Shown one piece after another: positions 1 to 58,860 of a stretch of DNA of 64,000 nucleotides. The translations under genes were made by a program, and so were the position numbers. Numbering within the stretch: the stretch's first letter is position 1; every line of letters begins with the position of its first letter. Origin of the DNA: Cinnamomum chago (taxonomy: Eukaryota > Streptophyta > Magnoliopsida > Laurales > Lauraceae); contig CP142451.1 of the NCBI GenBank assembly GCA_038049695.1, positions 71,626,001 through 71,690,000 of the forward strand. The letters run 5' to 3'. Below the pieces are notes generated by a model, which did not search any database, was not told the DNA's origin, and saw only the letters and a list, made by a program, of their open reading frames with translations.

Positions 1-1954
1 GCATAACACGCTTAGGAAGTGATCCCCTTTTTCTTGAAACACATCTTCAAAACGAGCTTGTACTTATACTTCAAAACGAGTACACGATGATATTCATTAT
101 ATCGAAACCAAAGTACGAATACAAAGCCTATCAAGCTCATGCAAGGACCTTTGGTTGATCGTTGTGCAGCCGAAGCCCAGATGTTGGAATTAAAACAGAA
201 TTGGTGCCCCAGAAGTTCAAGGACATCTCGGGTTTCGAGTGCATAATATCAGGCAAAAGACCACTTAACATGTTCTAGTTTTCATTCTTGCAAAGACTCT
301 TCAAAACAGGTAATTTGTCAATTTCGGTCACCTCGCGGTTAGGTGTCGGCTAGCCGAACTAGAGTCTGGTGGCTAGCCGCCAGCTGACCGACAGGCTGAC
401 CGCTGGAAATCCAGGTCCAACACAGCCCTCTGGAAAAGAAACCGAACTGACTGCGGTTAGCCGAACTGAGACTTGGCGGTTAGCCGTAAGCTGACCGTAG
501 GGTTGACCGTGAGAGATCCAGTCTGAAATATAGCTCTCGGAAAAAGGAACCGACAACGCGCGGTTGGCCAGCGGTTAGCCGACATGGGGTATGGCGGCTA
601 GCCGCTTGCTAACCGTCAAACTGACCGAAACTCACTATAGAAAAGTCATCTTCTGGAAAGGAAACCGCCGATCTCGGTCAGCTCGCGGTTAACTGAAATG
701 AGGATTTCGCCTAGCCGCCAGCTGACCGACTGCTGACCGAAACTGCACGGGAGATGCAGTTCAGTTCAGATTTTCACATTTCCTTCTTCCCTTCTTCTTG
801 TTTCTCATTCCACTTGCACTCCCTGAGCCTACATACTCTCCAAGGGACAAAACACACATTTTTCCCAATTTCAAACATTCAATCCAAGGAAAACATGATC
901 ATGAAGCTTATAAACATATTTATATGCAAAATTTCCAAAACAACAATGAAGCTTAAAATACACATGCACAATGGTCCTATAGAGATTACTTGCCTTGCCC
1001 AAATGCTAAACACTCCTCTTCAAGCACTTCACTCAAAAGCTAAGCCAACACTACAAGAAAACCCAAGAGAAAACCACATAAACTCACTCAAAAATGGAAC
1101 CAAAGAACCCATTTTAACAAAAGGGTTTGTAAACATGAAAAACATGATCTTTAAGGAACCAAAAGACTTCATGAAAAGTATGGGTTGAAACTCTTACCTA
1201 ACAATGGTTAAACAAGAAGAGGTGAAGAAAATGAAGAGCTTGTCCCACAAGAAACTCCAAGAAATTTGTACCAATAGAAAGCTTGCAAGGAGAGGAAGAA
1301 GATGATGGTCTTGGAATTCTATTTGGAGATCTCTAGCTAGATCATGCAAGGTGAGGAAGATGGAAAGGAAAGAGGGGTTTTCAACCCTAGGTTAAGAAAG
1401 TTGCAGGATTTTTGTAAAGTGAATGAAAAAGATGAGGGTTAGGTTTAAAACTTTAACAAATGGGTCCCAATAAACTTGAACCTTGAAATGACAAAAACAT
1501 GATCTTGTGGACCTCGAATGACTTCGACGAAGAAGGATAAAACGATCATCGAAATATCTTGTTTCCAAAAAGTATACTTTTGACATGGTTTTGAGATCTC
1601 GAAAATTGTGTCCAGATTTGTGCATAAAAGACAATTTTACCCTATTTGGGCCAAAACATGGGTTTTTGGGCTTCAAACATGAATGTGCTTAAAACGAAAG
1701 TTATAACACATAGAAAAATCATTCAAATGAAATCAAGATCACAATCACATGGAAATCGATACGATCCTCCCAAGCTTACACGTGCACTTAGGCCTTCCTG
1801 AGTGTGTCAGACTAACACTAAACGTTCTCAAAATTCCCAAAGCTATGTTCAAGACTAAACTAATTACTTCTAACCCAACGACCACTAAACCCACTTAGGA
1901 CTAAACACATACTAATCGCACACTAATCGACTTGGTCTGGGTCGGGGTCTAACA
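1..1954 (-). mobile_element. Gypsy-type LTR, family B, copy 1 (cut by window edge)
   Basis: The segment ends at 1954 with GGGTCGGGGTCTAACA, the outer terminus shared by the gypsy-type LTRs of this window, and matches the complete LTR-B at 38143-40951 nearly end to end (for example 1-60 against 39194 onward, and 1390-1954 against about 40390-40951). Read on the minus strand it begins at 1954 (U3 start), so the window edge removes its U5 end. No coding capacity is seen; the open frames in it are shadows. Whether it is a solo LTR or the 3' LTR of a longer element lies outside the window, so its TSD cannot be tested (right flank GCAAG). Confidence 0.8.
322..742. repeat. Palindromic array, CGGCTAGCCG / CGGTTAGCCG type, in LTR-B copy 1
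   Basis: About a dozen short GC-rich palindromes or half-palindromes (CGGCTAGCCG, GCGGCTAGCCGC, CGGTTAGCCG, plus CTGACCG partners) lie 15-60 bp apart. Spacers contain the recurring word TCTGGAAA. The equivalent position of LTR-B copy 2 holds CGCTCGAGCG palindromes instead, although both flanks are homologous. Confidence 0.85.
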
Positions 1955-2016
1955 GCAAGAGCATGTAATGTGTGTCTATGCTTGAAGTGGATCCTGAAAG
2001 TGCAGGCTAGGGCCAA

Positions 2017-3542
2017 TGACTAAGTCCTAGAGGGGGGGTGAATATGACTAAGAGTAATCAATTACCAATTTTAAACTTTTTAAGGCGATTTTAAAATAAC
2101 CAGAACAAAGAACATAACAAACACAATAAAGAGAATGACTTAAGTGGAATATGTGTTCATCAAGGCAGTACTTAATCAGTAAAGAAGAGATACAAGTAGA
2201 TGTAAGTTGATAAGCATAAGTGTATGTGTCTATTGAGCTTAGTGATGAAATATCATATACAACAATTTCCACAATATATATAGAAATGTAAATCATGCCA
2301 AAAGGAATAGACACAGGAAAATTATAGTGGTTCGGTCACATAGACCTACATCCACTCTCAAAGTTCACACAGTCCCTTGGTTCCATTAAGAAGAATCAAA
2401 CTACACAAGTACTGATTCAACTTCAGTTTTGCTATCGAGGTTCGATCACTCAGATCTACTCCTCCTCACACAATTACAAGGTGATTTAGTCACATAGATC
2501 TGAATCACCATCACAGTTTGTAGAAGTTTAAAGAAGGGTGAACACTTGCCTTTGATGAAGATGAAAAGAGTTCTAAGGAGTTTTGACAATAGTCGAAGCT
2601 TTCACCTCTTGACGACGCAATGGATTTGAGAAGGAAGCATCCATTGTGTAGCACAACCAAGGTTCAGAGGTCTGGTCTTCTAGGATAACAAGGATAAGAC
2701 TTTCATACAATAAAGGATCCTAGAAGAGGCTCTTCTCACACAACACACTCATCTTGGAGCTAATGAAGCTCTTGGATTTTCCTAAATCTAACACATGAGT
2801 GTTTGGAAGAAGATTTGAGAGCTTAGATTTGTTGGAAAGAAAATAGCATGCAAAGCTCTCTCAAAAGAGTCCACCGGAAAAGAGAAACAAGCTTCAGATA
2901 TATAGAAAACATCCAACGGCTATATTGGCGGCTAGCCCCTTTAGACCATCGGCTAGCCTCTTTCAAACAACGATCAGAAAACTCAAATCAGGTTGGCTCA
3001 CGGTTAGCCGTAGGAAAAGTTGGAGGCTAGCCGTGAGGCAACCGCAAGGGTGACCGCAAGGAGGGTTCTGAAAAAAATGGTCTTTGGAAAGTAAACCGTA
3101 ACCCACGGTTAGCACTGCGGCTAGCCGCAGGTGCACATGGCGGTTAGCCGCAGGAAGAGTCAAATGTCAACCTGAGAAAAGAGGCTTACTGGAAAGCTGA
3201 CCGTGGGTTTGGCGGCTAGCCCCCTTGCAAAGGGCTGCTAGCTAAGGTCACCTGACCCTTTTTAGAAGGACTATTTAAGCTGAGATAAAAAGGATAGAAA
3301 TCATGATTTTAAAACACATCTTTTTCCCAGGGATCTAAGGATTGGTCTGGGTATAAAATACCTGAAAAGGTTGTCAAACACAAATGGAGACCTTCTTTGA
3401 TGAATCCGGACTTTCCCATAGCTTGATAATCATTCTGAATATGATCTTCCTTAAGGCACTTTGAGAGGCAAGGACTTTGGAATACATTGGCACGGAATTG
3501 TCAAAACAAACTCAGTGCTCACAGACATGTGACACTTATAGA
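2017..3542 (-). mobile_element. Probable solo copia-type LTR (family F)
   Basis: It begins TGACTAAGTCC followed by a G-run and GTGAATATGAC, the same layout as the start of the array LTRs at 6629 (TGAAAGTCC, G-run, GTGAATAGGG). It shares with them the line TAGTGGTTCGGYCAMA near 2320-2340. GCCAA precedes it (2012-2016) and follows it (3543-3547), a candidate TSD. The end is TATAGA rather than CA, so the right boundary is uncertain. No PBS, PPT or coding region lies next to it. The short pieces 1955-2016 and 3548-3659 on either side hold nothing recognised. Confidence 0.5.
2928..3253. repeat. Palindromic array, GGCTAGCC type, in LTR-F
   Basis: Repeated GCGGCTAGCC, CGGTTAGCCG, GAGGCTAGCCG and related words lie between TTTGGAAAG-like spacers. 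It is the same palindrome class as 322-742, although the host LTR is copia-type rather than gypsy-type. Confidence 0.8.
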
Positions 3543-3659
3543 GCCAAAGACCTCCTTTTATAGGCTCTTGGAGGGCACTTGAAAGGTCACAGAGGGAGTT
3601 GAAAGGCTAGAAGTCACCATAACGGGTGCATTTTTCATAAGTGGGTGCTTTGAAATGCA

Positions 3660-4007: not shown

Positions 4008-4197
4008 ATTCGGTCAACTAAATATGGGAAAATGGCCGACCGAAAACTCACAGAACCAAAAAGATATTTTTGGTCACCATTCGGTCAACCGAAATGTGCA
4101 ACTCGATCAACTGAAATGCACAATTCAGTCAACCGAATTTTCACAGAGTTGCAGCGTTTGAATTTTCCAATCGTTAGGAATTCAGTCAATCAAACAA
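4008..4197. repeat. Palindromic array, TTCGGTCAACCGAA type, in LTR-C
   Basis: Five or six near-palindromes of the form TTCGGTCAACCGAA, with decayed versions (TCAGTCAACCGAA, TCGATCAACTGAA), lie 15-45 bp apart, about 340-530 bp from the LTR start. Confidence 0.75.
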
Positions 4198-4726: not shown

Positions 4727-5501
4727 TGTCGCGACCCCGGACCGGGTTACCGAGGTCCTAATCTGGGATCGAGATTGAAGATGTGTGTATACGTTTATTT
4801 AATTTCCCACAAGTGTCCGCGGTGAGGATATCACAACAACATAGTACATTTCTTTTAATGCAGAAGCGTGTAGCAAATAAAATTGATGATTTAAGTGACA
4901 AGATAAAATCATATATGTAAATCAAGTATCAGAATGAGCAATGATCATAAGTGCTTTCCAAAAGAAAAGTTAAAGTTTATATAAAAGATCATTTAATTAT
5001 ATTTCCCAAAAATAGAGGCCAACAAAGGCCAATAAAAACAAACTACCAATCCCTAAAAGAATTGTTAAAAGTTTTCCCAAAATGTTATCTCTCTCTAGCA
5101 ATCAAATATCTAAACGACATCATCAGCATGCCACTCAACTAGCCGTTGCGGTTCACCGACCGCCTCCTCAAGCTCCGCTTCGGGATAGGCAATATCCGGA
5201 CCTGAGTACTAAAGAGTGGGTCAAACATGACGGTTTGACAAATGGGTGAAGAGACATAACAATATAATAATAAATGAATTCACATTCAAAAGCATTTAAA
5301 ACCTGTTTAAATAACAATTTCCATAAAAGAGATAAATGATTTATTCAAATACAAGTATGCGTTGTAAAACATGTAAAGGTAACCAAGGAAACGGGAAACA
5401 AGCAAGATGACAACCACACGAAGCTAAGTCCTCTATCACCGAAGTGACAGAGCAATATCAAGGCGTTGATCTCAGTCATACGAGGTGAGGAGAAACAATA
5501 A

Positions 5502-5519
5502 AATATATATATATATATA
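5502..5519. repeat. (AT)n microsatellite
   Basis: A short alternating AT run inside LTR-A1. Related LTRs have an interrupted AT stretch at the same place (about 51450-51480). Confidence 0.9.
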
Positions 5520-6212
5520 CATATACATATAATATACGGGACATGACCATGGTAGCGAGCCGGGCATCGGGAACCACGGTAGAAATCCGGGGTATCGGGA
5601 TAAGACCACGGTAATAACCGGGTAGCGGGATCCAAACTGCAGCTGGCGGGACAAGAGGGGGATCTCCAAGTCGGTGAATCAGACCAACAGGGTTATCCAA
5701 ACTTAGTGGTGCCGACTCATAGGTCGAATGACAAGATCAAAGCATGTATGAAATACATCAAGTGCAAGTACATAAATAAACGGGATGGGGGTGTTCAAAG
5801 GCACAACTATCGTATCAATCCGAGCAATGCATTTCTGGACTAATAACTATATCAAATACAATTTTAATGCTTTCGGAAATGACAAGTCATGTAGTATAAA
5901 TCTATGGAATAGTGAAGTACAATAAGCCATTGAAGTTTCGGGTTCAAGATTTGTTTGAAGTGAATAGGGATCCCGTATGTCTAAATCGATAAAGACTTGG
6001 TACTCTTTGAGTTTGGGGACATTCTGGGGTCTTTATACGCTTTGAATTTTCAAAACTTCAAATGAAATCTTCATGTTGTGGTTTCTTTCTCAAATGGCCT
6101 CATACATTGCCTAGTAAATCTCCCTGACATAGAGGGGTTCTCAATGAATAGTACCGAAACGTTTAAACAATTCATCACTGTCCCAAACATGACCCTTGAT
6201 CGACAGTGCACA

Positions 6213-6475
6213 TCGCTCGAGCGAACCGGAGACTTCGCTTGAGCGAGGTGGTCTCTGGAATGGTCTTCTGGGAGGGTTCGCTCGAGCGAAATTGAGGTCG
6301 CTCGAGCGAACTCATCTAGCATCAGGTTGGCTCGAGCGAAAGTTCAGTTTGCTCGAACTAACCACTCTCTAGAATGAGTTCTGGGAGGGTTCGCTCGAGC
6401 GACAAACGGGGTCCGCTCGAGCGAACTGTCCACTGGAATGGCACGAACCCTTTTCTGGATACTTCGCTCAAGCGA
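6213..6475. repeat. Palindromic array, TCGCTCGAGCGA type, in LTR-A1
   Basis: Nine copies of the TCGCTCGAGCGA palindrome or one-base variants are spaced 12-50 bp apart. Spacers repeat CTCTGGAATG, TTCTGGGAGGG and TGTCCAGAAACT. Most variants change the central CpG to TG or CA (CTTGAG, CTCAAG), as expected of 5-methylcytosine decay. Confidence 0.9.
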
Positions 6476-6623
6476 TCTGTCCAGAAACTAGTTCCGAGAG
6501 AATTATTCTCCTCTCTTTCTCTTCCTTCTATAACCTACTTTAAACACCAAATGAGGAGTTCCAAAACTCCATCCAAATCAATATCAAATCTCCTATAACA
6601 TCCATTCCATCTTCCTCCAACAA

Positions 6624-6628
6624 TATTG
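6624..6628. repeat. TSD AATAT, left copy (tandem array)
   Basis: Repeated at 32219-32223. The homologous place in LTR-A3 (about 52579-52592) has no insertion and a single ATAT, which serves as a paralogous empty site. Confidence 0.9.
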
Positions 6629-7009: not shown

Positions 7010-7833
7010 AAAGATTTCTCTAAGAAGGTGTCTTTCCAAAAGATCACTCTAAGAGATTACAATTTAAAGCTCAATGAAATTGCCTCTTGAAAAGGCTAAT
7101 AAGAAAGTTTAAAACAAACTCACACAAACACTCTATGAATGCAAAGGTGTATATGCTCATGATGTGTGTGTGTGATGACTTCAATCAAGATTAAAAAGAA
7201 GGCTTATTCAAATGTATGCTCAAAGCATTTCAAAGTTTAAGACATATAAAAGACTTGATTGAAGTCTTATGCAAATCACATGTATGAAATTCAACTTGTT
7301 TATGACATGAAAATCAAGGACTAACAAGTTGTATGAAAAAGACTAATTTAGAACATGTGATGCATGTGCATGTTGTTTTCAAAACCAAATTAATTTTACT
7401 AATGCTTAAATGAATGAAAACAACAAAAAATGTTTCAACCAAGTAAAAGACTCATGCTATGAAAGAAAAACAAAGATTTTGTCTAAGCATGATTAATAAA
7501 GTTAACAACTTGGATTGAAAACAAAGGTGAAGAATCCAATCTTAATTAGACCAAGGATTAGAACAAGAATGGATTCAACACATCATAGTTATTATGCTAA
7601 ATATCATATACCAAAAGTTTAAACAAAGCACATAACTATGATTAATAAAGGTAGAGCTTACTTGGAGGTTTAACTCATTAATCCCAAGCTTTAGCTCTCC
7701 TAAAGACCTCCTAGCCTTTCCAACTTCATCCCCTTTCAATGGCTCCAAAATGGTCTCAAAGGTTCAAGATTCAAGCCTTCAAAAAGGTTGGAAAAGAATG
7801 GACTTTACAGCCAAAAAGTTGCCAACGGCTAGT

Positions 7834-7987
7834 TCTCGGTCGACCGGCAAAGGGGTCTCGGTCGACCGAGAAAGCACAACGGTCATAAAAATGACCGTTG
7901 GCAGCTTGCAGTTCAGAAACTGCACAGTCGCCCTACAGTGTCCTCGGTCGACCGAGACACAGGTCTCGGTCGACCGGCGACACTGCC
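7834..7987. repeat. Palindromic array, TCTCGGTCGACCGAGA type, LTR1
   Basis: Four CGGTCGACCG palindromes, two of them extended to 14-16 bp (TCTCGGTCGACCGAGA). Between them is a separate hairpin, CAACGGTCAT-AAAA-ATGACCGTTG, and the outer GACACTG/CAGTGTC words can also pair. It lies 505-660 bp from the LTR sense start. The SRSTE/SVDR-rich frames called here are translations of these palindromes, not proteins. Confidence 0.92.
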
Positions 7988-8495
7988 GGGCGAGTCCCTG
8001 GGGCCAAAAATCCAACTTTTTTCCATTTCAAAGTATTTCTTTGAGGGATCTTTGGGCCACTAAATCAAGCTTAAATAACATGTTTTAAGACATTCTAAGA
8101 TGTTTAAAAACATGAAAAACACAAAGCCTAAAATGATTCAAAAGTTTAAAACCAAAGGCTAGCTTGATTTGATAAAACTCTTTTCAAATGAAAATGCATA
8201 CAAAAATGATTCTTTTTTAAATGAATGTATGCAAAGCTCAAACCTAAATTCACAAGATGATTTTCCAAATATAATGCACAAGGAATTAGGTTTTCAAAAG
8301 AGTTTTGGGTTCTAAAACCAATGCATCCAAGTTTATGACCAAAACATGCATAAACCAAAAACTTTTCCAAATCTAAAAACCAATGCATGTATAAAACTAG
8401 ATTTCAAGGTATTTTAAATCAATGCATGTGTGAAATATCAAATGATGCTAAAGTGCAAATGCATCCATCAAATTGCAATTACAAAAACCCTAACA

Positions 8496-37778: not shown

Positions 37779-37791
37779 TCCTCCACCCCTT
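37779..37791 (-). promoter_or_regulatory. Gypsy polypurine tract
   Basis: AAGGGGTGGAGGA on the minus strand abutting the 3' LTR. The pol reading frame ends inside it at 37790. Confidence 0.85.
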
Positions 37792-41790: not shown

Positions 41791-42926
41791 AACGCTGCAA
41801 TCTCTCTCTTCATGTTGTTCCACCAAAATCTGCCCTTCAAGTTTTGATACATCTTTGTGCTGCCGGGATGCATGGAGTACTTCGTGTTGTGAGCCTCAGT
41901 CATGATGTCATTTCTCAAATCTTCGATGTTAGGCACACACAGACGGTCACGGTAGTACAAAACTCCATCAACAAAATGAAAATCAGGACGTTCTGCTATA
42001 TGCTCTGAAATCTTGGCCAACTCTGGATCTTGCAACTGGCTGTCCTTGATCTTCTGAATGAAAGAAGGTTCTGACATCGTCATGTTAGCTAACAAAATAC
42101 CCTTCCTTAGTGGCTGTAGGTCTATACTCAATTCTTCAAACTGCTCGAAAATACAAGTGCCACTTAGATTTGCCAAGCCTACTGATTTCCTACTCAAGGC
42201 ATCTGCAACAACATTTGCTTTCCCCGGGTGGTACTTGATTGGAAAATCATAGTCCTTGATATATTCCATCAATCTTCTCTGCCTCATGTTCAAATCCTTC
42301 TGTGAAAACAGATACTGTAAGCTGTGGTGGTCGGAGTGGACTTCGAACTGCTCTCCATAGAGGTAATGTCTCCACATTTTCAACGCGAACACAACCGCTG
42401 CTAACTCCAGATCATGGGTGACATAGTTCTTCTCGTGATCTTTCAACTGTCGAGATCCATAAGCAATCACTTTTCCTTTTTGCATCAACACACAACCAAG
42501 TCCAACATTCGAAGCATCGGTAAAAATGGTAAAACCGCCGCTTCCGGATGGTAAGGTAAGGACTGGTGCTGTAGTCAATCTCTTCTTTAGCTCTTGGAAA
42601 CTCTCTTCACACTGATTTGTCCATACATATGGTGCATTTTTCCTTGTCAACTTTGTCAATGGTGACGCAATCGACGAAAAACCTTGCACAAACCTCCGAT
42701 AATAACCTGCCAATCCCAGAAAACTTCTGATCTCTGTTGCATTCTTCGGTCTTTCCCAACTCATAACTGCTTCAACCTTGGATGGATCCACTGATAATCC
42801 TTCTTTGGAGATGATGTGCCCCAAAAATGCTACTTGCTCCAACCAAAAATCACACTTGTTGAGCTTCGCATACAACTGGTTCTCTCTCAAGAGTTGCAAT
42901 GCTATCCTCAAGTGCTCTTCATGCTC
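41775..42926 (-). pseudogene. Gypsy RT C-terminal part, RNase H, integrase N-terminus
   Basis: It follows the stop at 42927-42929 in the same frame. It shows the RT thumb/connection ([27 protein letters not shown]), RNase H with D in FTDASNVG, E in [10 protein letters not shown] in [10 protein letters not shown] and D in VVADALSRK, and then the HPG-type integrase zinc-binding half ([18 protein letters not shown]). The frame is lost near 41790. Confidence 0.92.
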
Positions 42927-45038: not shown

Positions 45039-45049
45039 GGCATTAGGGT

Positions 45050-45358
45050 CATGTTGTCTTTGATTGATAACGATTGTGGGTTGGGTTGAACCGGTTCTAG
45101 TCTTCTCTGTAAGACCTCAAGCAATTGCCTTTGCATCTTTGCCATTTCCTTAGCATGGTCTTCTTCTCTCTTGAGCATCTGTTCTTGCAATCTAGCTTGG
45201 TTTTCATTGGCTTGACGTTGCTGGTCAAGCATTGCTCGCATCATTTCTTGGAATTGATTTGGTGGGTTGTTCTCAACTATATCCTCTTCTATCGGTCCGG
45301 TGTGATCACTGTTACTTCCAGAAGGAATGCCATTCACTGTTCTCTTACGGGGAGGCAT
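45050..45358 (-). pseudogene. Gypsy Gag N-terminus
   Basis: It begins MPPRKRTVNG (M at 45358, chosen because the MPPR start is usual for this group and the open stretch before it is leader), followed by a Q/E-rich coil (residues 30-90). The frame is lost around 45060-45090 by a 1-base indel and Gag continues in the next frame. The site is too far upstream to be the Gag-Pol programmed frameshift. Confidence 0.85.
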
Positions 45359-45500
45359 GATGCTGCAAAACAAATCGTTAGCACATCATAATATAATGGG
45401 TCACACATTGCTCACACGATACTAGCTATCGAAAGATCTAACGAATCCTCGCCACGTCCTTAGGATTTCTAGTTTCTTTTAATTGCTTGAAACACGTCTC

Positions 45501-45512
45501 GCTCTAATACCA
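45501..45512 (-). promoter_or_regulatory. Gypsy primer binding site
   Basis: TGGTATTAGAGC on the minus strand, three bases from the 5' LTR. It is a one-base variant of the tRNA-Met-type site. The leader to the gag start holds nothing else recognised. Confidence 0.85.
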
Positions 45513-45515
45513 GTC

Positions 45516-48500
45516 TGTCGCGACCCTGGACCGGGCCCCCGAAGAAACTGATCCGGAGTCGGGACATTATTAGTGGTGATGATGATGATGATCCACATCA
45601 CATCTGTTTAAATGGTAACATACACTTATTTAATTTCCCACAGGTGTCCGTGGTGAGGATATCACAACCATAAATGAACATTCCTATTAAGTGCGGAAGC
45701 ATGTAGCAAATCAAATAGTCAAACTATCTCTAATCATCGAAGCATTAACATCAAGTATTATAAACTGTATCAGAATGAGCAACGTTCTATAGCATGTTTC
45801 CCAAAAGTAGTTAAAGTTTAAACAACAGATCATTTAGTTACAATCCCCAAAATTAGAGGCCAACAAAGGCCAATATAAACAAAACGGTAATCCATAAGAA
45901 TGGTTAAATAGATCCCCTCAAAATGTTACGCCTCTCTTAGCAACCCGATGTCTACATGACATCGTCGGCACGCCACTCGACTAGAGGTTGCGGCTCACCT
46001 ACCGCCTCCTCCGGCTCCTCCTCAAGGTAGCCGGTAACGAGACCTGAGTGCCAAAGCAAATGGGTCAGACTCGACGGTCTGGCAAGAGAGTGAAAGATAT
46101 AACAACATATAATAAAGGAAATATCTTGAAAAGCATAGAAATCTGTTTAAACAAGAACTCTCATAAAGTAGATAAATCATTTGCTAGAAAACAAGTAAAC
46201 AAGATAAAATACATAAGGTATCCAAGGAATCGGGAACTAACAAGATGACAATCACATAAAACTAAGTCCTCTGTCACTAAAGTGACAACAGTATAACGGG
46301 ACGTTGATCTCAGTCACACAAGGTGAGGAGATTCAACGCAAATCATATATACAATATAAATATACGGGACGGGACCACGGTAGCGAACCGGTTATCAGGA
46401 CGGGACCACGGTAATAGACCGGGTATCGGGATCCAAACTGCAGCTGGCAGGACGGGAAAGGGATCTCCAAGTCGGTGGATCAAACCGACAAGGTATCCAA
46501 GCTTAGTGATGCAGACTCATAGGTTAAACAACAAATCGAGACATATGCAAAATACATCAAGTCCAAGTAAATAAATGAACGGGGCAAGAATACTCAAATG
46601 CATAACTTTCATTTCATGTCGGGCAATACTCTTCGGGACAAGTCCATGTTACTAGTGTAACTATCATGCCTTCGGGAAAACAAATCATATAATATAAATC
46701 TTGGAATGAAGTGAAACAATGAACTATAACAATTTCGGGTAAAATACTGGTTTCAAGATCTATTTAGTGTATAGGGGTCCCGTATGTCGATTATAAATAA
46801 GGACTTGGTACTCCTCGAGTTAGAAGACATTCCGGGCTCCTTATGCACCTTGAAGTTTCAAAACTTCAAATGAAATCTTTGTGATATGGTTTCTTTCCAC
46901 GAATGGCCTCATACATTGTTTAGCAAATCTCCTTGCCATCGAGGGGTTCCCAGAGAATAGACCCAAACATTGAAATAGTTAAACATCGTCCGAAACATAG
47001 CCTTGCCCAACGGGGCCCCTCGTTCGAGCGGACTGGAGAGTTCGCTCGAGCGAGTCGCTCTCTGGAATGGCTGTCTGGGTGGGTTCGCTCGAGCGAAGTT
47101 GAGGTCGCTCGAACAAACTCATTGGGTCGAGCGAATATTTAAATGCGTTCGAACAAACAACTCTCTGGAATGAGTTCTGGGATGTCCGCTCGAGCGACCA
47201 AGAGTGCGCTCGAGCGACCCAGCTACTGGAATGCTCCGAACCCTTTTCTGGACAGGTCGCTCGAGCGAAGTGTCATGGTCGCTCGAGCGAACTGTCTAGA
47301 AACTGATTCCAGACCAGTTCAGGTCGCTCGAGCAAAGTGTCATGGTCGCTCGAGCGAACTGTCCAGAAACTGATTCCGGACCAGTTCAGCTCCACTCTAT
47401 CTCTTCCTTCTACCATCCTTTTTCAGCCACTTTTATGCATCAAATGAGGAGTCTAATACTTCATTCAAACTACTACAAATCCTTCATCACATCCCTCTCA
47501 TTCTCCTCCATCAATGTCACATTCAATATAAAGAGGGGAAGAAAGAAGGGAACCATTTCACATAAGATGCATTTGAAACAACACAAGAAGAATTTAAAAG
47601 CTATGCCCCAACACATCTTTAAAATCATAAATGCACCAACAAGGCTCTTCATGAGCATTTATTTCAAAGCAAGACAATAAATAGGCATGAGTGAAAATTA
47701 ATAAAACCAACCATATTTCTCATAAAAACATTAAAAGCTCTTAAATGATCATATCATCCACTTGCCTTAGGTCCAAGCTAGCCAAACAATCAAGCCTCTA
47801 ATCACTTCTTAAGCTCACTTCCAAGCTACAATAAAAAATCCCCAAAACAAACCCTAAAATGGGTCAAACAAAGAATGAAAAGGATAGAACTTTCAATAAT
47901 GCAAATGGAGCTTATCAAGAGCTAGAGGAACACTAATCTAGGAGATGGGGAGGGTTACTTACTTGGATGACCTTCAAATGAAGAGGGCTAGCTCAAGGGA
48001 GGTCTCAAGGTCGTAAGATTTCTCCACAAATGATATCAAGATGAAGCTTGTAAGATGAGGAAGAAGATGGTGATTTCCATTTCAAGTTTGGTGCAAGATT
48101 AGTGTGGTTTGGAGATGGAGAAGCAAGAAGAAGAAGAAGAAGAGTTGCAAGGAAACCCTAAACTCTCCTCTTGTGCTGGAACATGAAGAAGGAATGGAAT
48201 GAAGAGTGGCTTCCCTATGTTAACAATGAGTTGGGTCCCACTACTAAGGCACTAGTTGGGCTGGAATCATCTCTTTCGGGATCTCGGGTGAATTCGACGA
48301 AGAAGGAAGAAATGATCGTCGAAATATCTAGTTTCCAAAAACTGTATGTTTCGCAGGTTTCGGGAATATCAAGTTTTGGGGTACAAATTTTTGTGTGCAA
48401 TGACTGTTTTGCCCTCAAGGCTATGAAATCGGGTTTCGGAATCTCAAACGAGGACGGGATCAACGTGAAAGTTGTATGGAATAACAATACCAATAAAACG

Positions 48501-48726
48501 GGATTAAAACCATGAATGCAAAAATCTCCGATGAATCCTCGAGCACATGCCATGCCATAAAAAGGAAAACCCCAAAGGGTCCCACTAATCACAAGATAGC
48601 CAAAACTCCCCAAAACTATATCAAAAGCTATTCCAAACCCAACTTAGCCAAAATCACTAATCAAGCTTAGAACTAACACGCAACTTAATTAGTACTAATC
48701 GGGTTCACTCGGGTCGGGGTCTTACA
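45516..48726 (-). repeat. Gypsy 5' LTR
   Basis: 3211 bp with the same termini as the 3' LTR and the conserved U5 block at 45637-45665. The longer palindromic array accounts for most of the length difference. Confidence 0.92.
47020..47359. repeat. Palindromic array, TCGCTCGAGCGA type, gypsy 5' LTR
   Basis: About eleven palindromes. A unit of about 63 bp (from GGTCGCTCGAGC through CCAGTTCAG) is present twice in a row near 47254-47390, a fresh duplication absent from the 3' LTR. Confidence 0.9.
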
Positions 48727-50335: not shown

Positions 50336-50340
50336 CCATG

Positions 50341-50657
50341 TGTCACGACCTCGGACCGGGTCTATCGAACTAATCTTGGAACGGGACTAATTGGTGAGAT
50401 GTTAGGTGATGAGTATAAGGTGTGCACATTTATTTAATTTCTCACAGGTGTCCGCGGTGAGGATATCACAACCATATATGAACATTTCTTTTAAGTGCGG
50501 AAGCGTGTAGCAAATCAATTATTCAAGCCATCTCTAGTCATAAAGACATTAACACAAGTATAAATACTGTATCAGAATGAGCAATGATCATTAGCATGTT
50601 TCCCAAAAGTAAGTTAAAGTTTATGCAAAAGATCATTTAATTACATTCCCAAAAATG
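50341..50657. repeat. 317-bp tandem duplication, copy 1 of LTR-A3 end
   Basis: 50341-50657 repeats as 50658-50973 with few differences (CACGACCTCGG against CGCGACCCCGG, TCTTGG against TCCTGG). The break is at CCCAAAAAT. The LTR terminus and conserved U5 block therefore occur twice. Confidence 0.88.
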
Positions 50658-52149
50658 TGTCGCGACCCCGGACCGGGTCTATCGAACTAATCCTGGAACG
50701 GGACTAATTGGTGAGATGTTAGGTAATGAGTATAAGGTGTGCACATTTATTTAATTTCTCACAGGTGTCCGCAGTGAGGATATCACAACCATATATGAAC
50801 ATTTCTTTTAAGTGCGGAAGCGTGTAGCAAATCAAGTATTCAAGCCATCTCTAGTCATAAAGACATTAACACAAGTATAAATACTGTATCAGAATGAGCA
50901 ATGATCATTAGCATGTTTCCCAAAAGTAAGTTAAAGTTTATGCAAAAGATCATTTAATTACATTCCCAAAAATAGAGGCCAACAAAGGCCAATGCAAACA
51001 AAATACCAATCCCCAAAAGAATGGTTAAACGTTCCCAAAATATAATGTCTCTCATAGCAATTGAATGTCTACATGACATCATCAGCACGCCACTCAACTA
51101 GGCGTTGTTGTTCACCGACCGCATCCTCAAACTCCGCCTTGGGATAAACAATGTCTGGACCTGAGTACCAAAGAGTGGGTCAAACACAACAGTTTGGCAA
51201 ATGGGTGAAAAGACATAACAAATACATTTACCTTTAAAAGCATTTAGACCTGTTCGATCAATAATTTTCATAAAAGAAACGAATCATTTATTGAAACCAT
51301 AAATATAGTATAAAACATGTATGGGTATCCAAGGAAATCGGGAAACAAGCAAGATGGCAACCACACAAAGCTAAGTCCTCTATCACCTAAGTGACAGAGC
51401 AAGATCAAGGCGCTGACCTCAGTCACCATAGTGAGGAGGTACAACAAAATATACATATACATATACATATAATATACTATACATGACCATGGTAGCGAGC
51501 CGGACATCGGGAACCATAGTAGCAGTCTGCGACATCAGGACAAGACCACGGTAATAACCGGATAGCGAGATCCAAACTGCAGCTGGCGGGACAAGAGGGG
51601 GATCTTTAAGTCGGTGGATCAAACCAATGAGGTTATCCAAGCTTAGTGGTGCCGACTCATAGGTCAAATAACCAATCGAGCCATGTGTAAATAAATCAAG
51701 TACAAGTAAATAAACGGGCAGGACAGGGGTGCTCAAAGGTACAACTGTCATTTGATATGGTGCAATGCACTTGAAGACAAATAACTATTTCAAGTGTAAT
51801 TTCGATGCTTTCGGGAAAACAAGGCATATAGTATAAATCTTGGGATCAGTAAAGTACAATAAACAATCGGAGTTTCGGGTTCAAGATTGCTCAAAGTGAA
51901 TAGGGATGTTGTATCTCTAAATAGATAAAGGCTTGGTACTCATTGAGTTTGGGAACATCCCGGGGTCCTTATACACTTCGGATTTTTCAAGACTTTAAAC
52001 GAAATCTAGGTGATGTGGTTTTCTTCACGAATGGATGTTTAAACATAGGAACGGTTCTTCTCATTGCAATAGGGCTCTCAACAGACCTTTCTCAAACATT
52101 TAGACATTTCATTAGTGCTCCCAAAACAGTCCCAGGTGAACAGTACCCA

Positions 52150-52432
52150 TCGCTCGAGTGGACTATGGGTTCGCTCGAGCGGTGAGCTCTCTGGAATGGT
52201 TGTCTGGGTGGGTTCGCTTGAGCGAAGTTGAGGTCGCACGAGCGAACTCATCCAGTAGGTGGTTGGCTCGAGCGAAGATTCAGTTCACTCGAACTAACCA
52301 CTCTCTGGAACGAGTTCTGGGAGGGTTCGTTTGAGCGGTAAAGGGTTCGCTCGAGCGAACTGTCCTCTGGAAAGACTCGAACCCTTTTCTGGACACTTTG
52401 CTCGAGCGAAGTGTCATGTTCGCTCAAGCGAA
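52150..52432. repeat. Palindromic array, TCGCTCGAGCGA type, in LTR-A3
   Basis: About nine palindromes with CTCTGGAA and CCAGAAACTG spacers, in the same order as LTR-A1. Several have lost the central CpG. Confidence 0.88.
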
Positions 52433-53260
52433 TTGTCCAGAAACTGATTCTGGGACAATTCTCCTCTCTTTCTTTTCCTTTTACAATCCCTTTTAGGTCC
52501 TTTGTATACACTAAGAGAGGGGTTCAAAACTTCGTCCAAATCAACATCAATTTTCCAACAACATCCATTCTAACCTCCTCCAACATATCACATCCAAAAA
52601 TAAGGAAAAAAGGGAAGGAGATCACTACACACAAGAGTACATTCGAGATAAAACAAGAGAAAATTAAATGCTATGAACCAATACATCTCTATGGCAATAA
52701 ATGCACTATCAAGGCTCTTCATGAGCATTCATTTCAAGTCAAAGTAAAAAATAAGCATGTATGGAAAAACAATGAAATCAACCACATTTCTTATAAAACC
52801 ATTGAAAGCTCATAAAATCAAATCATCCACTAGCCTTAGGTCTCTAAGAAGCAAATGAAGCTCTAATCATCTCTCCAAGCTATGAATCAAAATCCCCAAA
52901 AACAAACCCTAAATGGGTCAAAACAAGAAATAGAAAGGGAAACCTTACAATAATGAAAATGGAACCTCTTTAAGGTCAAAGAAACACAAATGTAAGATAT
53001 GGGGAAGGTTGCTTACTTGTAGGTTCTCCAAATGGATAAGGTGAGCTCAAAGAGAGTCTTGGAATGGGAGGTCTTCTACAAAAATGGTATCAATGGAGAG
53101 CTACGGTGGTGAGGAAGAAGATGATGATCTGTACCTCATAATTTGTGCAAGATTGGTGGTGGATTTGGTGATGGAAAGCAAGAGCAAAAGAGAAAAGGGG
53201 AAAACCCTAGTTTGAGATTGGAGTTGAGCTAGAAAAGGGAAAAGGAAGGAGAGAGTTCTC

Positions 53261-53268
53261 TTTTTATA
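53261..53268 (-). promoter_or_regulatory. TATA box of LTR-A3
   Basis: TATAAAAA on the minus strand, 505 bp from the U3 start. Confidence 0.65.
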
Positions 53269-53778
53269 GAAAAGTGGAGTTGGGTCCCACCACTAGAATC
53301 CTTCATGGGCTAAAATCATGTTTATCAGGATCTCGAATGAATTCGACGAAAAATGAAGAAATGATCGTCGAAATATCTAGTTTCTAAAAAGTATATGTTT
53401 CGCGGGTTTCAGGGATACCAAAATTTGGGTATAGATTTAGTGTAAAAAGACTGTTTTGCCCTCAAGGCTAGGAAATCGGGTTTCGGGATCTCGGACGGGA
53501 ACGGGATCAACATAAAAGTTGTAGGCATTAACAAGATAAAAAAAACAGGATTAAAACAATAAATACAGGAATCTCCGATAAATCCCCTAGTAAACGCAAA
53601 GTCATATAAGGAACCCCCAAAGGGCCCCACTAATTACTAAAGCACTCAAAACTTCCCAAAACTATATCAAAAGTTATTCCAAACCCAATTTAGTCAATGA
53701 CTACTAATCACGCTTAAGACTAACACACGACTTAATTAGCACTAATTGGGTTCACTCGGGTCGGGGTCTTACACCTTG

Positions 53779-54563: not shown

Positions 54564-55066
54564 TGTACGACACCATCCCGAGTGACCTCGATTAATACTA
54601 ATTATGTCATATTTTAGTTCTAAGTGTGATTAGTGAGTTTTGACTAAGTTGGGATTAGAATAGCTCTTTTATAGTTTTGGAAATTTTGAGTGCCTTTGTG
54701 ACTAGTGGGGCCATTTGGGGGTTCCTTTTATGACTTTGCGTTTACTTGAGAGTTTATCTAAGATTCTTGTGTTTATTGTTTTAATCCCGTTTTTCTTATC
54801 TCATTAATCCCTACAACTTTTATGTTGATCCCGTCCAAGTCTGGAATCCCGAAACCCGACTTTCCTAGCTTTGAGGGCAAAATAGTCTTTTCACACTAAA
54901 TCTGTACCCAAAATTTGATATCACCGAAACCCGCGAAACATATACATTTTGGAAACTAGATATTTCGGCAATCGTTTTTCTCTTCTTCGTCGAATTCATC
55001 CGAAGTCCCGAAAACCATGACTTCAACACCACAAGAATTCTAGTGGTGGAGCCCATCTCACTTGCT

Positions 55067-55074
55067 TATATAAG
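55067..55074 (+). promoter_or_regulatory. TATA box of LTR-A4
   Basis: TATATAAG, 503 bp after the U3 start and followed by a C/T-rich stretch. Confidence 0.65.
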
Positions 55075-55924
55075 GATAACCCTCCTTCTTCATCTCCTAT
55101 TTCTAGCTCAAGCTTCAACCATCAACTAGGGTTTTTCTCTTTTCTCTTCTTCTTCTTGCTTTTCCATCCCATTACCTCTATCAACCTTGCATCACTTGAA
55201 GATTGGATGTCATCATCTTCTTCACCATCTTAGAAGCTTTCCATTGATACCATTTTTGGAGAAAACCTCACATTCCAAGACCCTCTTTGATCTAGCCTTA
55301 TCCATTTGAAGAACTTCCAAGTAAGAAATCCCTCCCATCTCTTTTATATGTGTCTTTCTAGCCTAAGAGAAGCTTCCTTTTCATTATCGAAAACTTTCCT
55401 TTCTTGTTTTTGTTTTAACCTATTTAGGGTTTGTATTTTGGGGGTTTCTGTTTGTGCTTGTAGGTTATCTTGAGAGAGCTTAACTCGTTGCTTGATTTCT
55501 TGTTTAGAGACCCTAAGGCAAGTGGATGATTGATATTAGGAGCTTTCAATGGTTTTCATGAGAAATGTGATGGATTTGGTTATTTTTATTCATGTTTATT
55601 CAACTTGCATTGATTGTGAAATAAATGCTCATGAAAGAATTTTCTTAGCTCATTTATTGTCATGGAAAAGTGTGGTTTATAGTCCTTTATTTATCTCTTG
55701 TTTATGGCTCTAATGAATGTTGGAGATTATGGATTTTCTCCGCTCTCTTGTGGTTGATTATGGTTGAGAAGAAGTTGATTGAATGTGAAGTGATTGGAGG
55801 AGAATGTAATGGATATTGTAGAAGGTTTTGAGCTCCTCATTTGATGTATACAAGGGGCTCAAGAGAAGTTGCAAAAGGATGAGAAAGAGAGGAGAAAAAT
55901 TGTCCTGGAACCAGTTTCTGGATA

Positions 55925-56185
55925 GTTCGCTCAAGCGAACTTGACAGGTCACTCGAGCGAAGTGTCCAGAAAAGGGTTCGAACCATTCCAGTGGATAGTT
56001 CGCTTGAGCGAACCCTCCCAGAACTTGTTCCAGAGAATGGTTAGCTCGAGCAAACTGAAATTTCGCTCGAGCCAACCTGAACTGAATGAGTTCGCTAGAA
56101 CGACCTCAACTTCGCTCGAGCGAGCTCACCCAGAAAACCATTCCAGAGAGCTCTCCGCTCTAGCGAACTCCAGGTCCACTCGACA
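55925..56185. repeat. Palindromic array, TTCGCTCGAGCGAA type, in LTR-A4
   Basis: About ten palindromes, many with TG/CA changes (GCTCAAGCGAA, GCTTGAGCGAA). Spacers GTTCCAGAGA and CATTCCAG are the complement of those in the minus-strand LTRs. Confidence 0.87.
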
Positions 56186-57891
56186 TTGGATACTGTTCAT
56201 CTGGGACTATTTCGGGAGCACAAATGAAATGTTTAAAAGATTGAGAGAGGTTTGTTGGGAGCCCTATTGTGCTGGGAAGACTTATTCTTATTATTTATAT
56301 CCGTTTAAGAAAGAAACCACATCACGAAGATTCATTTGAAGTTTTGAAAATCCTAAGGTGTATAAGGAGCCCAGAATGTCTCCAAACTCAAGGAGTACCA
56401 AGTCTTTACTGATTTAGACATACGGGATCCCTATTCACTTTGAACTAGTCTTGAACCCCGATACTTGTCTTGAGATTTTGAAAGTTCATTTGTATTTCAT
56501 TATTCCTGAATTTCCTATGCATTTCCGAAAATATTGAAATTGCAATTTTAGCATTTTGCTAGCCCGATATGCATTCCCGGATTGAAATGCCAGTTGTGCC
56601 TTTGAGCACCCCCGTCCCGCTTGTTTACATATTTTATACATGTTTTGATTTTGTCATTTGACCTATGAGTCGGCACCACTAAGCGTGGATAACTCTGTTG
56701 GTCTGAACTACTGACTTGGAAATCCTCCTCTTGTCCTGCCAGCTGCAGTTTGGATCCCGCTACCCGGTTATTACCGTGGTCTTGTCCCGATATCTTGAAT
56801 TGCTACCGTGGTCATGTCCCGTATAATATATATATATATGTATTTATTTATTTCGTTGAATCTCCTCACCTGTTGTGACTGAGATCAACGCCTTGATATG
56901 CTCTTGTCACTTTGGTGATAGAGGACTTAGCTTCGTGTGGTTGCTTGTTTCCCATTTCCTTGATTACCTTCACATGATTTACATTGCATACTTGTCTTTA
57001 AATAAATGATTTATCTCTTTTATGGAAATTGTTATTTAAACATGTTTAAATGCTTTTAAAGGTAATTTTTTTTATTATTATGTTGTTATATCTTTTCATC
57101 CACTTGCTGACCGTCGTGTCAGATCCATTTTTTTGGTATTTAAGTTCGGATATTGTCTACCCCGAGGCGGAGCTTGAGGAGGAGGTTGGTGAACCGTAAC
57201 GTTTAGTTGAGTGGAATGCTGATGATGTCGTTTAGACATTCAGTTGCTACGAGAGACATAACATTTTGGGAATTGTCTAACTCATTTTTTTGGGAATTTC
57301 ATTTTGTTTATATTGGCCTTTGTTGGCCTCTATTTTTGGGAATGTAATTAAATGATCTTTTCTATAAACTTTAACCAATACTTTGGGAAAGCACTAATGA
57401 TCATTATTCATTTTGATACTTGGTTTATACATGTGTTATAGTCTTGTGACTAGAGTTAAATTGCCAATTTGATTTGCTACACGCTTCCGCACTTAAACAA
57501 AAAATGTACTATGTTGTTGTGATATCCTCACCGCGGACACCTATGGGAAATTAAATATATGTGTGTATCTTATCGTCACACTACAATTCTCATCACTTCT
57601 ATTAGTCCCGATCCCGGATTAGTTCGGTGGACCTGGTCTGGGGTCGCGACACTCTGTACCCATTCGAAGCTCCGAAAACCAGTTTTTCCAACCCTGGGGG
57701 AAAAATCGGTCTTTTCACATTGAATTTGGACCCATATTTTAGATCTTAGAACCATGCCAAAATTATACATTTTGAAAACTAGATTTTTTTAGAAACATTT
57801 TTCCCTTCTACGTCGATCGTATCCAGGGCTCAGAAATTGATGTTTTAACCATTGACAACTTTTTGATGTCGTAGGGCCCACACCTACCCAT

Positions 57892-57899
57892 TATAAAAA
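57892..57899 (+). promoter_or_regulatory. TATA box of old LTR A'
   Basis: TATAAAAA, about 517 bp from the U3 start once the insertion is discounted, so the spacing is kept even in this old copy. Confidence 0.55.
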
Positions 57900-58783
57900 G
57901 TACCACCCTCCTCTCTTTCTCCCTCATTCGTTGTAGCCCAAGGGGGGAGCTTTGCAACTGAGCTCTCCCCTCCCTTTCTCCTTGTTTTTCTTCTCCCCAA
58001 TCATGGAGGAACCCTTGCCAAATGGGAGACCTAAGCCCATCATCACTCTCTTCTCACTCTCCTCTCCCTATTGGTGTTTTTCTTTCTCAAAGGAGGCTGG
58101 GCAGCCCCTTCTCCAAGCTCCTCCTTGTTGATTTGTGGTCTTAGAGGTAAGAATGTCCTTCCCATCTTCTATTTTGTGCAATGGCATCCCCTTAGGTTCC
58201 ATTTCCCTAGCTTTGTGTGCCCCATTCCTTGTCTTTCTTGACTCGCCATTTTAGGGTTCTAAATGGGTGTATTTTGGGAGTTTTGTATAGCTTGGAGATC
58301 TTTGGCTTGGGAGTGAGCTTAGGAGCTTGTTTAGCTATCTTGGAGGTGAAGGCAAGTGGATGAATGGATGGTTTTGAATGCTAACATGTTTTATGAGAAA
58401 AACATGGATTTCATTACCTGCTCATAGTGATTAAATACTTGCTTTTATATATGCTTGTCACTATGGTTTTTATTGATCTAAAAAATGTGCATATTGATGG
58501 GTATTTCCCTCTTGCTTAATCTCTTGGAAATGTATGAATTTGATTTTTGATAAAACTTGCTGTATATTACATATGGATTACATGAATGATGGGTTTTCTC
58601 TTGTGTTGAATGAGATAGTAATGAAGGAGATTTGATGTATGTTATGGAGTGTTTGATGAAGGAATAAGTGTGGTCTTGAGAGGGCTAGGAGCCCCCTTTT
58701 TGTGACAAAGGGGTGGCTCAAAGGAGAACTGAAAGAAGAGGAAGAAGGAGCCCGAACTGCACAAAAATCCACTTTTTGAAGGA

Positions 58784-58860
58784 GTTCGCTCAAGTGAACC
58801 CCCTTCCGGAGGCCAATTGGCACTAGACAACCTGCCAGGGGATCAGATCGCTCGAGCGAA
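58784..58860. repeat. Palindromic remnant, TTCGCTCAAGTGAA / TCGCTCGAGCGAA
   Basis: Only two copies remain, at about 1.4-1.5 kb from the LTR start, the same relative place as the larger arrays. Confidence 0.7.

Follow-up and report, generated by a model that had tools for sequence, protein, structure and literature searches.

The window, by which is meant the whole stretch of 64,000 nucleotides that was analyzed, comes from a 1.06-Gb plant genome and contains two lineages of LTR retrotransposons, the chromoviruses A, B1, and B2, which we take to be Tekay/Del, and the Sireviruses T and F, together with an unclassified fragment, C. It begins inside LTR B1 (1–1954, minus strand), which holds an array of palindromes with the core CGGYTAGCCG in pairs 23 bp apart (347–717, minus strand); LTR F (approximate ends 1997–3540, minus strand) carries an array with this core at 2929–3222 on the same strand. 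Fragment C (4075–4137, no strand assigned) consists of 22-bp tandem units around CGGTCAACCG. The first part of LTR A1 (4727–6626, minus strand; array 6214–6474, minus strand) is separated from its continuation at 32219–33381 by the insertion of T, a head-to-tail Sirevirus-type array (6627–32218, minus strand) of five LTRs and four internal parts with a period of about 5.95 kb, for which the inferred TSD is AATAT (6622–6626 and 32219–32223). The palindromes of T have the core CGGTCGACCG, with two pairs 22 bp apart in LTR copy 1 (7837–7976, minus strand) and further copies of the array at 13788, 19665, 25613, and 31560. The chromovirus element at 34667–48726 has A2 as its 3' LTR (34667–37778; array 36202–36412) and A3 as its 5' LTR (45516–48726; array 47021–47356), all on the minus strand, and its coding pieces (37793–45116, minus strand) for gag, protease, RT, RNase H, integrase, SH3, and a chromo-like domain are interrupted by a lone LTR B2 (38143–40951, minus strand, right end accurate to one or two bases) that is nested inside the pol gene, with its array at 39527–39731 (minus strand). 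LTR A4 (50658–53773; array 52151–52430, both minus strand) is followed by LTR A5 in the opposite orientation (54564–57651; array 55928–56165, both plus strand). The A and B2 arrays have the core CGCTCGAGCG, a single copy of which lies at 58849–58858 (no strand assigned) within a diverged LTR-A relative at about 57693–59905. The cores named in the original prediction are found within the span it gave for them, but the LTR-A and gypsy element that it listed separately are one family with five LTRs of 71–98% identity, and its repeat D was not identified in the window.

In the A element, matches to Retrotrans_gag, RVP_2, RVT_1, RNase H, Integrase_H2C2, and SH3_Tf2-1 exceed the Pfam cut-offs, and those to rve and Chromo (E 4.6e-4, 20.5 bits versus a cut-off of 25.1) fall below them. 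The element has the gag-PR-RT-RH-INT order and the C-terminal chromo-like domain (the sub-cut-off Chromo match) of a chromovirus. B1 and B2 are classed through pol pieces only, one from a B1-type element elsewhere and one from a B2-type element, both of which are gypsy. F has a Sirevirus-like PPT in L061 and a copia gag (Retrotran_gag_2, E 5e-29) in L062, evidence from one full-length copy, and a polyC signal at 2027, whereas T is called Sirevirus-type from noncoding signals only, a PPT at 8494 and a polyC at 6651; the PPT letters are those that we take to be a mark of Sireviruses. By these marks T and F are Sirevirus hosts and A, B1, and B2 are not, their pol being gypsy and A also having the chromo-like domain.

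Palindrome Clusters and Chance Expectation

With a cluster defined as at least three similar near-palindromes inside 260 bp, the window contains 13 clusters, five of which are the near-identical T copies, and none is present in any of 10 local (1-kb) dinucleotide shuffles, so that the excess over chance anticipated in the original prediction is borne out. Two 100-kb blocks at arbitrary sites in the same genome contain five and three clusters (0–1 and 0 in their shuffles); of the five, one sits in an ordinary tandem repeat, and of the three, two come from the paired LTRs of a single element. Two more stretches of 20 kb, which were not shuffled, have none and one, the latter a GC-rich simple repeat. 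An excess of exact palindromes is absent from all five control stretches of the window. GC-rich 10-mers that recur at a distance of no more than 150 bp form 350 pairs in the window, of which 58 are palindromic; the two blocks give 11 palindromic pairs out of 450 and 4 out of 98. The chance level is about 0.1%, and the counts include non-independent members from the same array or from T copies. The arrays are real and above chance. Together with the coding domains, the shuffle test upholds the proposal that one design with different cores is common to copia (Sirevirus) and gypsy (chromovirus) LTRs.

Other parts of the prediction apply less generally. The 4–12 palindromes expected per array are found if imperfect copies are counted but not if the count is of exact GC-rich 10-bp palindromes, which number two in B1, one in F, none in C, and two in each of A4 and A6; relative to shuffles, the exact counts are not elevated in F and C, borderline in B1, A2, A4, and A6, and clear in A1, T, B2, A3, and A5. 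The general core formula CG-S-Y-N-N-R-S-CG does not extend to the blocks, which hold arrays of TTCCGCGGAA and CGTCCRGACG and a pair of CCGATATCGG, nor are all arrays confined to LTRs, since that of TTCCGCGGAA begins 312 bp beyond the LTR and primer-binding site of a copia element.

Spacing, Core, and Position

Spacing is the trait most alike across families, 79 of 185 adjacent spacings being 20–24 bp and 10 of the 11 array sets having at least one of them. The best phase over 7–16 bp, all spacings being pooled, is 10.5 bp, but phasing of the gaps of at least 28 bp is weak (P 0.03 for all distinct values and 0.14 for modal values, the best period then being 10.8). The core columns vary less than the spacers in B2-type copies (0.066 versus 0.129, a difference equaled or exceeded in 7 of 205 circular shifts), and the corresponding values for B1-type copies are 0.055 and 0.077 (64 of 371 shifts as extreme); core conservation is therefore clear in one of the two families, the B2-type. 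A neutral by-product, in which short tandem units grow by slippage and gene conversion and palindromy is incidental or comes from a CpG-rich satellite, would accommodate the tandem duplication of units seen in places and the changes among B2-type copies described below, but it is an improbable source of several unlike cores that are every one palindromic, of a palindromic share of repeated 10-mers so far above chance, and of the same spacing recurring with unlike cores.

The place of the array within the LTR, predicted to be fixed, differs by lineage, at sense positions 301–658 in two Sirevirus LTRs versus 1211–1683 in five chromovirus LTRs. The F array occupies 301–612, with TATATA at 637, about 25 bp downstream in the sense direction, and that of T occupies 519–658 with no exact TATA nearby; in F and in a relative of T the arrays are upstream of TATA. 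In the five chromovirus LTRs (B1, B2, A2, A3, and A4), the first 140 bp downstream of the array in the sense direction contain no TATA-like box, so that a promoter-proximal role is unsupported in these LTRs; the nearest is at 142 bp in B2, which has another inside its array, and at 178–256 bp in A4, B1, A3, and A2. The features taken to characterize Sirevirus repeated motifs (RMs) were LTR start 200–400 bp, a TATA downstream, a CGG-CCG palindrome, and at least eight copies per element. The CGG-CCG signature is present in T (CGGTCGACCG) and in F and B1 (CGGYTAGCCG) and absent from A and B2 (CGCTCGAGCG). Copy numbers, with the linker region uncounted, are four exact per LTR in T and 1–7 within one mismatch in F (12 copies).

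Different Arrays in a Common LTR Slot

The pol pieces of a B1-type and a B2-type element are 93.6% identical over 2432 nt, and the LTR flanks are 82.5% (right, 1201 columns) and 69% (left) identical, but the arrays are unrelated (mean scores of 14.5 on the same strand and 12.9 reversed in 110 pairs). Of the copies fetched, 10 of each type, every B1-type copy has a CGGCTAGCCG-type array in the common LTR slot and every B2-type copy has CGCTCGAGCG there, and mixing of cores within one mismatch is absent from all 20; for each type these were 10 of the 39 other listed matches, being the best matches to the queries and not a random sample. A clean difference in array between B1 and B2 is thus shown among the fetched copies. 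Beside the two pol pieces, L070 has CGCTCGAGCG only and L071 and L072 have CGGCTAGCCG only, but it should be noted that identity across the array stretch is only 91.5% between the two LTRs around the B1-type piece, so that their pairing rests on position. B2-type arrays are rearranged from copy to copy.

If the ancestral B LTR had carried both arrays, and each lineage had lost one, the difference would have arisen without exchange between B1 and B2, and the greater length of the B1 array is in keeping with such an ancestor. This is quite unlikely, however, as none of the 20 fetched copies bears both arrays and the likeness of B1 to F would still call for a common source.

Probable Kinship of the B1 and F Arrays

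The B1 array aligns in order with that of F (best pair, 283 columns, 67% identity, 76% ungapped), and in B1-F pairs the same orientation outscores the reverse in 132 of 132 comparisons, with means of 47.4 and 23.1. When the palindromes are held and the spacers shuffled, all seven B1-type arrays tested exceed 200 of 200 shuffles on either side (z 4.4–7.6), as against neither of two B2-type arrays. Reversed arrays with the same core likewise outscore motif-held shuffles (z about 4–10), and therefore a z of 5 for B1-F is by itself no proof. A small same-strand excess also occurs where kinship is not claimed (B1-B2, 86 of 110; A-F, 43 of 60; B2-F, 77 of 120; the counts for A-B1 and A-B2 are 25 of 55 and 31 of 50), but the mean same-strand difference is 0–2 points in such pairs and 24 in B1-F. 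The A, B2, and K arrays, which have the same core, score nearly equally in either orientation, indicating a common core and spacing with no clear collinearity of spacers. Similarity between the LTR flanks of B1 and F in the window is not beyond that of 10 shuffles.

These alignments support a shared ancestry for the B1 and F arrays. With an array apparently homologous to that of Sirevirus F in the B1 slot and CGCTCGAGCG in the B2 slot, the best reading is that cassettes were exchanged between Ty3/gypsy and Ty1/copia elements, the direction presumably being from Sirevirus to chromovirus. Copying of an array between LTRs, which the original prediction had set against itself, fits B1 and F and that pair only.

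Proposed Function of the Arrays

A functional module is the likeliest reading of the arrays. Each array would be a compact cis-regulatory module of its element, composed of several copies of one palindrome that are often paired about 22 bp, or two DNA turns, apart. Each palindrome is a putative site for a homodimeric DNA-binding protein, a pair of which would seat two dimers on the same face of the DNA, and paired sites for dimeric proteins are, from sequence, the most likely identity of the palindromes. The binder, presumably a host protein, would exert a regulatory effect, from just upstream of the TATA box in the Sirevirus module. Cores would be family-specific and the module replaceable as a whole, the slot in the B1 chromovirus LTR now appearing to hold the F-like array instead of CGCTCGAGCG. 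Taken whole, an explanation by a cis-regulatory module of paired dimer sites exchanged between superfamilies is, on balance, somewhat favored. The predicted module under diversification is accordingly retained as regards a common, non-chance design that is likeliest a module, but not as regards diversification alone, since the B1 and F arrays look copied. More tentatively, the arrays may be interchangeable regulatory cassettes that pass between the Ty1/copia and Ty3/gypsy elements within a genome, with every core keyed to its own member of a family of dimeric DNA-binding proteins, and capture of a foreign cassette might switch an activator or evade a repressor with the genes nearly unchanged.

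The palindromes might instead act as RNA or cruciform hairpins, adjacent ones pairing in the transcript and feeding small-RNA production or another RNA-level role. A role of this type was proposed earlier for maize Sireviruses, whose palindrome clusters receive excess small RNAs (Bousios 2016 as cited in PMC10760457). Predicted folding is far below dinucleotide shuffles in three arrays (z −5.3 in B2, −5.0 in F, and −12.9 in T), and with the palindromes and 3 bp on each side held and the spacers shuffled, extra spacer structure is found in 5 of 10 arrays (z −6.8 in T and −2.7 to −3.6 in T2, B1, A3, and G) but B2, F, A1, K, and H have little or none. Core substitutions (C>T 30 and G>A 25 among 118 cores from 16 arrays) lack a sense-RNA bias, those preserving G-U pairs in sense RNA being not in excess (25 of 55), and the antisense strand folds better than the assumed sense in 8 of 11 arrays, two of the 11 having no assigned sense strand. 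Hairpins also call for complementary neighbors and not for a recurrent 22-bp spacing of self-palindromes, and we regard them as unlikely to be the basis of the arrays.

Relationship to Known Systems

A feature described as Sirevirus-specific now extends to chromoviruses. If the proposed exchange is correct, LTR control regions are traded between long-separate superfamilies, beyond inheritance and mutation, and a retrotransposon could change its regulation in one step. B1 and B2, with pol 93.6% identical in the compared pieces, would then be a natural experiment, in which genome and expression data could show how the array affects copy number, age, tissue, and silencing. In the literature searched, no report was found of the same module in Ty3/gypsy chromovirus LTRs (A, B1, and B2) or of near-identical pol with unrelated arrays in one LTR slot. 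The tandem U3 boxes of Tnt1-type elements resemble the arrays here as proposed, being cis elements that recur upstream of the LTR promoter, but we know of no family-specific palindrome series among them that is common to two superfamilies. Such boxes of Tnt1 and similar elements are mentioned in the relevant part of PMC3601003.

As regards copia elements, the idea dates in print from 2010, when the RM boxes of Sirevirus LTRs were published as palindromes (Bousios et al. 2010, PMC2829016); according to the sections bearing on RMs, that paper compared Ty1/copia elements and terms RMs Sirevirus-specific. The T and F arrays match these RM palindromes in being family-specific, CG-rich, and clustered in the LTR, the F array also in lying upstream of TATA, and the T core, CGGTCGACCG, is the Vitis RM (PMC2829016). 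Unlike the RM boxes as described in those sections, the arrays here also occur in chromovirus LTRs, where those of A and B2 have a CGC-GCG core, and differ in LTR position, in the pairs about 22 bp apart, and in the replaced array (PMC2829016). Maize Sireviruses likewise have an LTR palindrome cluster for which strong RNA structure is predicted (Bousios 2016 as cited in PMC10760457), and the same maize palindrome is reported as the most frequent motif in the structured regions of Helitrons, an earlier case of one palindrome occurring in two superfamilies (PMC10760457). In contrast to that case, the cores here differ, the partners are gypsy LTRs rather than Helitrons, and the arrays are known from DNA alone; array replacement is not reported in the pertinent portion of PMC10760457.

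The arrays also resemble the VANC targets of VANDALs, short motifs in tandem repeats that differ among close relatives and co-evolve (PMC5735166, PMC10398659, in the portions concerned with targets). VANDALs, however, are DNA transposons with a known element-encoded cognate protein (PMC5735166, PMC10398659), whereas the arrays here lie in LTR elements with no known cognate protein. That they are family-specific motif arrays in noncoding DNA read by a sequence-specific anti-silencing protein, whether element-made or a co-opted host gene, is very improbable. The three A-element ORFs tested, a set that leaves out a fourth of 302 aa on the other strand, encode gag-pol alone; for the 531-aa ORF of T, no Pfam match exceeds the cut-off, and its two homologues are both unnamed; and the word palindrome is absent from PMC5735166. 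The split between B1 and B2 nevertheless resembles the divergence of such targets.

Retrotransposons of the Window

The window (C1:71,626,001–71,690,000 of the 1.06-Gb genome searched, which comprises 14 contigs and, judging from the elements, belongs to a plant) consists mostly of nested LTR retrotransposons. An element of family A, a Ty3/gypsy chromovirus with two LTRs of 3.1–3.2 kb each, lies on the minus strand at 34667–48726 and encodes, on that strand, gag, protease, RT, RNase H, integrase, SH3, and chromo-like domains. Further A LTRs are located at 4727–33381 (split), 50658–53773, and 54564–57651; the evidence base for this family is five LTRs, all within the window. A 317-bp tandem duplication (50338–50973, 98% identical) borders the LTR designated A4. 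B2 is a lone LTR within pol of A, and its relative B1 is at the left edge of the window.

The Sirevirus-type family T (6627–32218) is inserted into an A LTR as a head-to-tail series in which five LTRs alternate with four internal parts; the period is about 5.95 kb, and the copies are about 99% identical. T has a PPT and a polyC signal, and the second such family, F, has a polyC signal, with a PPT junction and a copia gag in one full-length copy; the PPT letters are taken by us to be a Sirevirus mark in both. Because the single ORF in the internal part of T, 531 aa long, lacks a confident Pfam match, the element is probably non-autonomous; a protein search with this ORF gave two unnamed homologues among 7990 candidates. 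At C3:82,915,590–82,969,318, six B1-type LTR matches with equal scores follow one another in exact 10,647-bp steps, apparently a further array in which complete LTR elements stand in tandem.

Palindrome Arrays in Copia and Gypsy LTRs

The original prediction of an array design common to copia and gypsy LTRs is borne out, since T and F carry Sirevirus marks and the pol of A and B is gypsy. A cluster was counted wherever 260 bp contained three or more similar near-palindromes bearing CG. The window has 13, five of them in the near-identical T copies, and two blocks of 100 kb elsewhere in the genome have 5 and 3; in ten local dinucleotide shuffles per stretch, the count was 0 for the window, at most 1 for the first block, and 0 for the second. 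The arrays are thus beyond chance, as had been claimed, and chance palindromes are excluded as their origin. With exact palindromes alone, enrichment is clear in A1, T, B2, A3, and A5, borderline in B1, A2, A4, and A6, and absent from F, the short fragment C, and five control stretches. A genome-wide count of the pattern TCGCTCGAGCGA-N(4–30)-CGCTCGAGCG gave 6718 matches in forward and 6774 in reverse orientation, two sets that overlap because the sites are palindromic, and zero matches for its backwards-read control. A GGGGCGCCCC cluster in contig C11 resembles a GC-rich simple repeat.

The copying of one satellite into every LTR is excluded as well, in that the arrays with the same core (A, B2, and K) score approximately alike in both orientations. 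Family K, found in the C2 block (L013, 760–1035), has a CGCTCGAGCG cluster in LTR-like sequence with TATAAAAA about 90 bp downstream; its core is the chromovirus core, and its spacers are not clearly collinear with those of chromovirus arrays. The A and B2 arrays likewise have core and spacing in common, with no clear collinear spacers. Comparisons of unlike-core arrays gave no clear kinship (z of 3.6–4.3 in reverse only for T and T2 against the further array G; z of 3.6 and a score of 19 for B1 and B2). Outside an LTR, a copia leader holds three TTCCGCGGAA palindromes at spacings of 22 and 42 bp, about 310 bp past the LTR and PBS (L009, 3292–3365).

Probable Replacement of the Array in B1

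On the right side of the array, the LTRs of B1 and B2 share 82.5% identity across 1201 columns, and on the left side 69% across 291 columns. The pol pieces of one B1-type and one B2-type element, both gypsy, have 93.6% identity over 2432 nt. No resemblance is seen between the two kinds of array (mean score 14.5 on the same strand, 12.9 reversed). Among ten further copies of each type, which are 10 of 39 other listed matches in each case and best matches to the query rather than a random sample, all ten of B1 type have 5–7 CGGCTAGCCG sites and no CGCTCGAGCG sites, and all ten of B2 type have 3–7 CGCTCGAGCG sites and no CGGCTAGCCG sites, with every site counted within one mismatch of the core. 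The LTRs flanking both pol pieces have arrays of the expected type, and the two on the B1-type piece, paired by position only, are 91.5% identical at the arrays. L068 contains a nested inverted B-type LTR, and L069 was used in its place for B1 internal DNA. L042, with an array cut by other DNA, was left out of the B2 matrices and diversity test but kept in the spacing, substitution, and core-site counts.

When B1 arrays are compared with the Sirevirus F arrays, the same orientation outscores the reverse in all 132 pairs (11 B1 × 12 F arrays; means of 47.4 and 23.1), and the best pair has 67% identity over 283 aligned columns; L050, also interrupted by other DNA, was left out of this matrix but kept in the spacing and core-site counts. 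The reversed comparison is the fairer control because it keeps both palindromes and spacing. A smaller same-strand excess, with mean differences of 1–2 points, occurs in pairs called unrelated (86/110 B1-B2, 43/60 A-F, and 77/120 B2-F). Against motif-held shuffles, the comparison with F gave z values of 4.4–7.6 in seven of seven B1 arrays and no signal in two of two B2 arrays, but reversed same-core arrays likewise score above such shuffles, limiting the weight of the B1-F values. The B1 and F copies in the window have LTR flanks with no similarity to each other. Since A and B2 have the CGCTCGAGCG core in common, the simplest direction would be that a Sirevirus-type array replaced a former array in B1. 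By eye, the two superfamilies also seem to share a second word, CTGGAAA or CTGGAAT, which reappears among the palindromes of the A, B1, and F arrays.

Relation to Published Motifs

The Sirevirus half of the pattern is already known from Bousios 2010 (PMC2829016), in the accessible portion of which the Vitis RM matches the T core letter for letter and the motif is called Sirevirus-specific, from a comparison of Ty1/copia. A palindrome in two superfamilies also has precedent, because one maize Sirevirus palindrome is, by the sections available of PMC10760457, common in structured regions of Helitrons. As far as their accessible text goes, PMC6911290 and PMC12477314 concern palindromes at insertion sites and PMC11963269 concerns tandem repeats outside the LTRs of Retand elements, rather than these arrays. 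The open-licence literature searched, mostly titles and abstract openings, contained no report of arrays in chromovirus LTRs or of exchange between LTR superfamilies, nor of the pair spacing of about 22 bp or of one array taking the place of a different one; chromovirus arrays, pair spacing, and array replacement are therefore apparently new within that literature.

Spacing, Position, and Proposed Role

Eight different cores are represented in the 11 array sets, 10 of which have an adjacent spacing of 20–24 bp; such spacings make up 79 of 185 adjacent ones. When all spacings are pooled, the best phase among 7–16 bp is 10.5 bp, although in these spacing and phase tests B1/F (of common descent if the array was replaced) and A/B2 (with a common core) are non-independent. 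The period test with gaps of at least 28 bp alone is weak (P of 0.03 and 0.14). Beyond the window, 240 kb contain 16 near-identical palindrome pairs lying 12–60 bp apart; the spacing is 21 or 22 bp in 11 of them, four of which come from the LTR pair of a single element. A separation of two DNA turns between dyads would suit two protein dimers on one DNA face.

In F, a TATATA box follows the end of the array by about 25 bp in the sense orientation, and TATAAATA occupies a similar place relative to TATA in a T relative from the C5 block; the layout is the same in published Sireviruses, with palindromes upstream of TATA according to the portion of Bousios 2010 (PMC2829016) available. The five measured chromovirus LTRs have their array 1.2–1.7 kb from the LTR start, without a TATA close by. 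Integration-site signals are excluded as the identity of the arrays, which are mid-LTR, whereas vl-att is at LTR termini in the accessible part of PMC4963935.

Judged from sequence, the arrays are somewhat more probably than otherwise putative dimer-binding sites that control LTR activity, in exchangeable modules: the palindromes would seat dimeric proteins with this controlling function, and whole array modules would be exchangeable between elements. In B2-type copies, variability is lower in the core columns than in the spacers (7 of 205 shifts are as extreme); in B1-type copies the two are not clearly different (64 of 371). Neutral expansion of the palindromes is improbable as an account of the arrays, and a function as targets of VANC-like anti-silencing more improbable still.

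That the palindromes act as RNA or cruciform hairpins is unlikely: several arrays do fold strongly as RNA, but substitutions keeping and breaking G-U pairing in the sense RNA are balanced (25 versus 30), giving no sign of selection on transcript hairpins. The T array at 7825–8010, close to long inverted repeats, has an RNA fold z of −12.9, or −6.8 with palindromes held, the lowest of ten arrays. Folding of the antisense strand is more stable than that of the presumed sense strand in eight arrays out of 11 (T, F, B2, A1, A3, K, and the further arrays H and M), with a difference of as much as about 18 kcal/mol.
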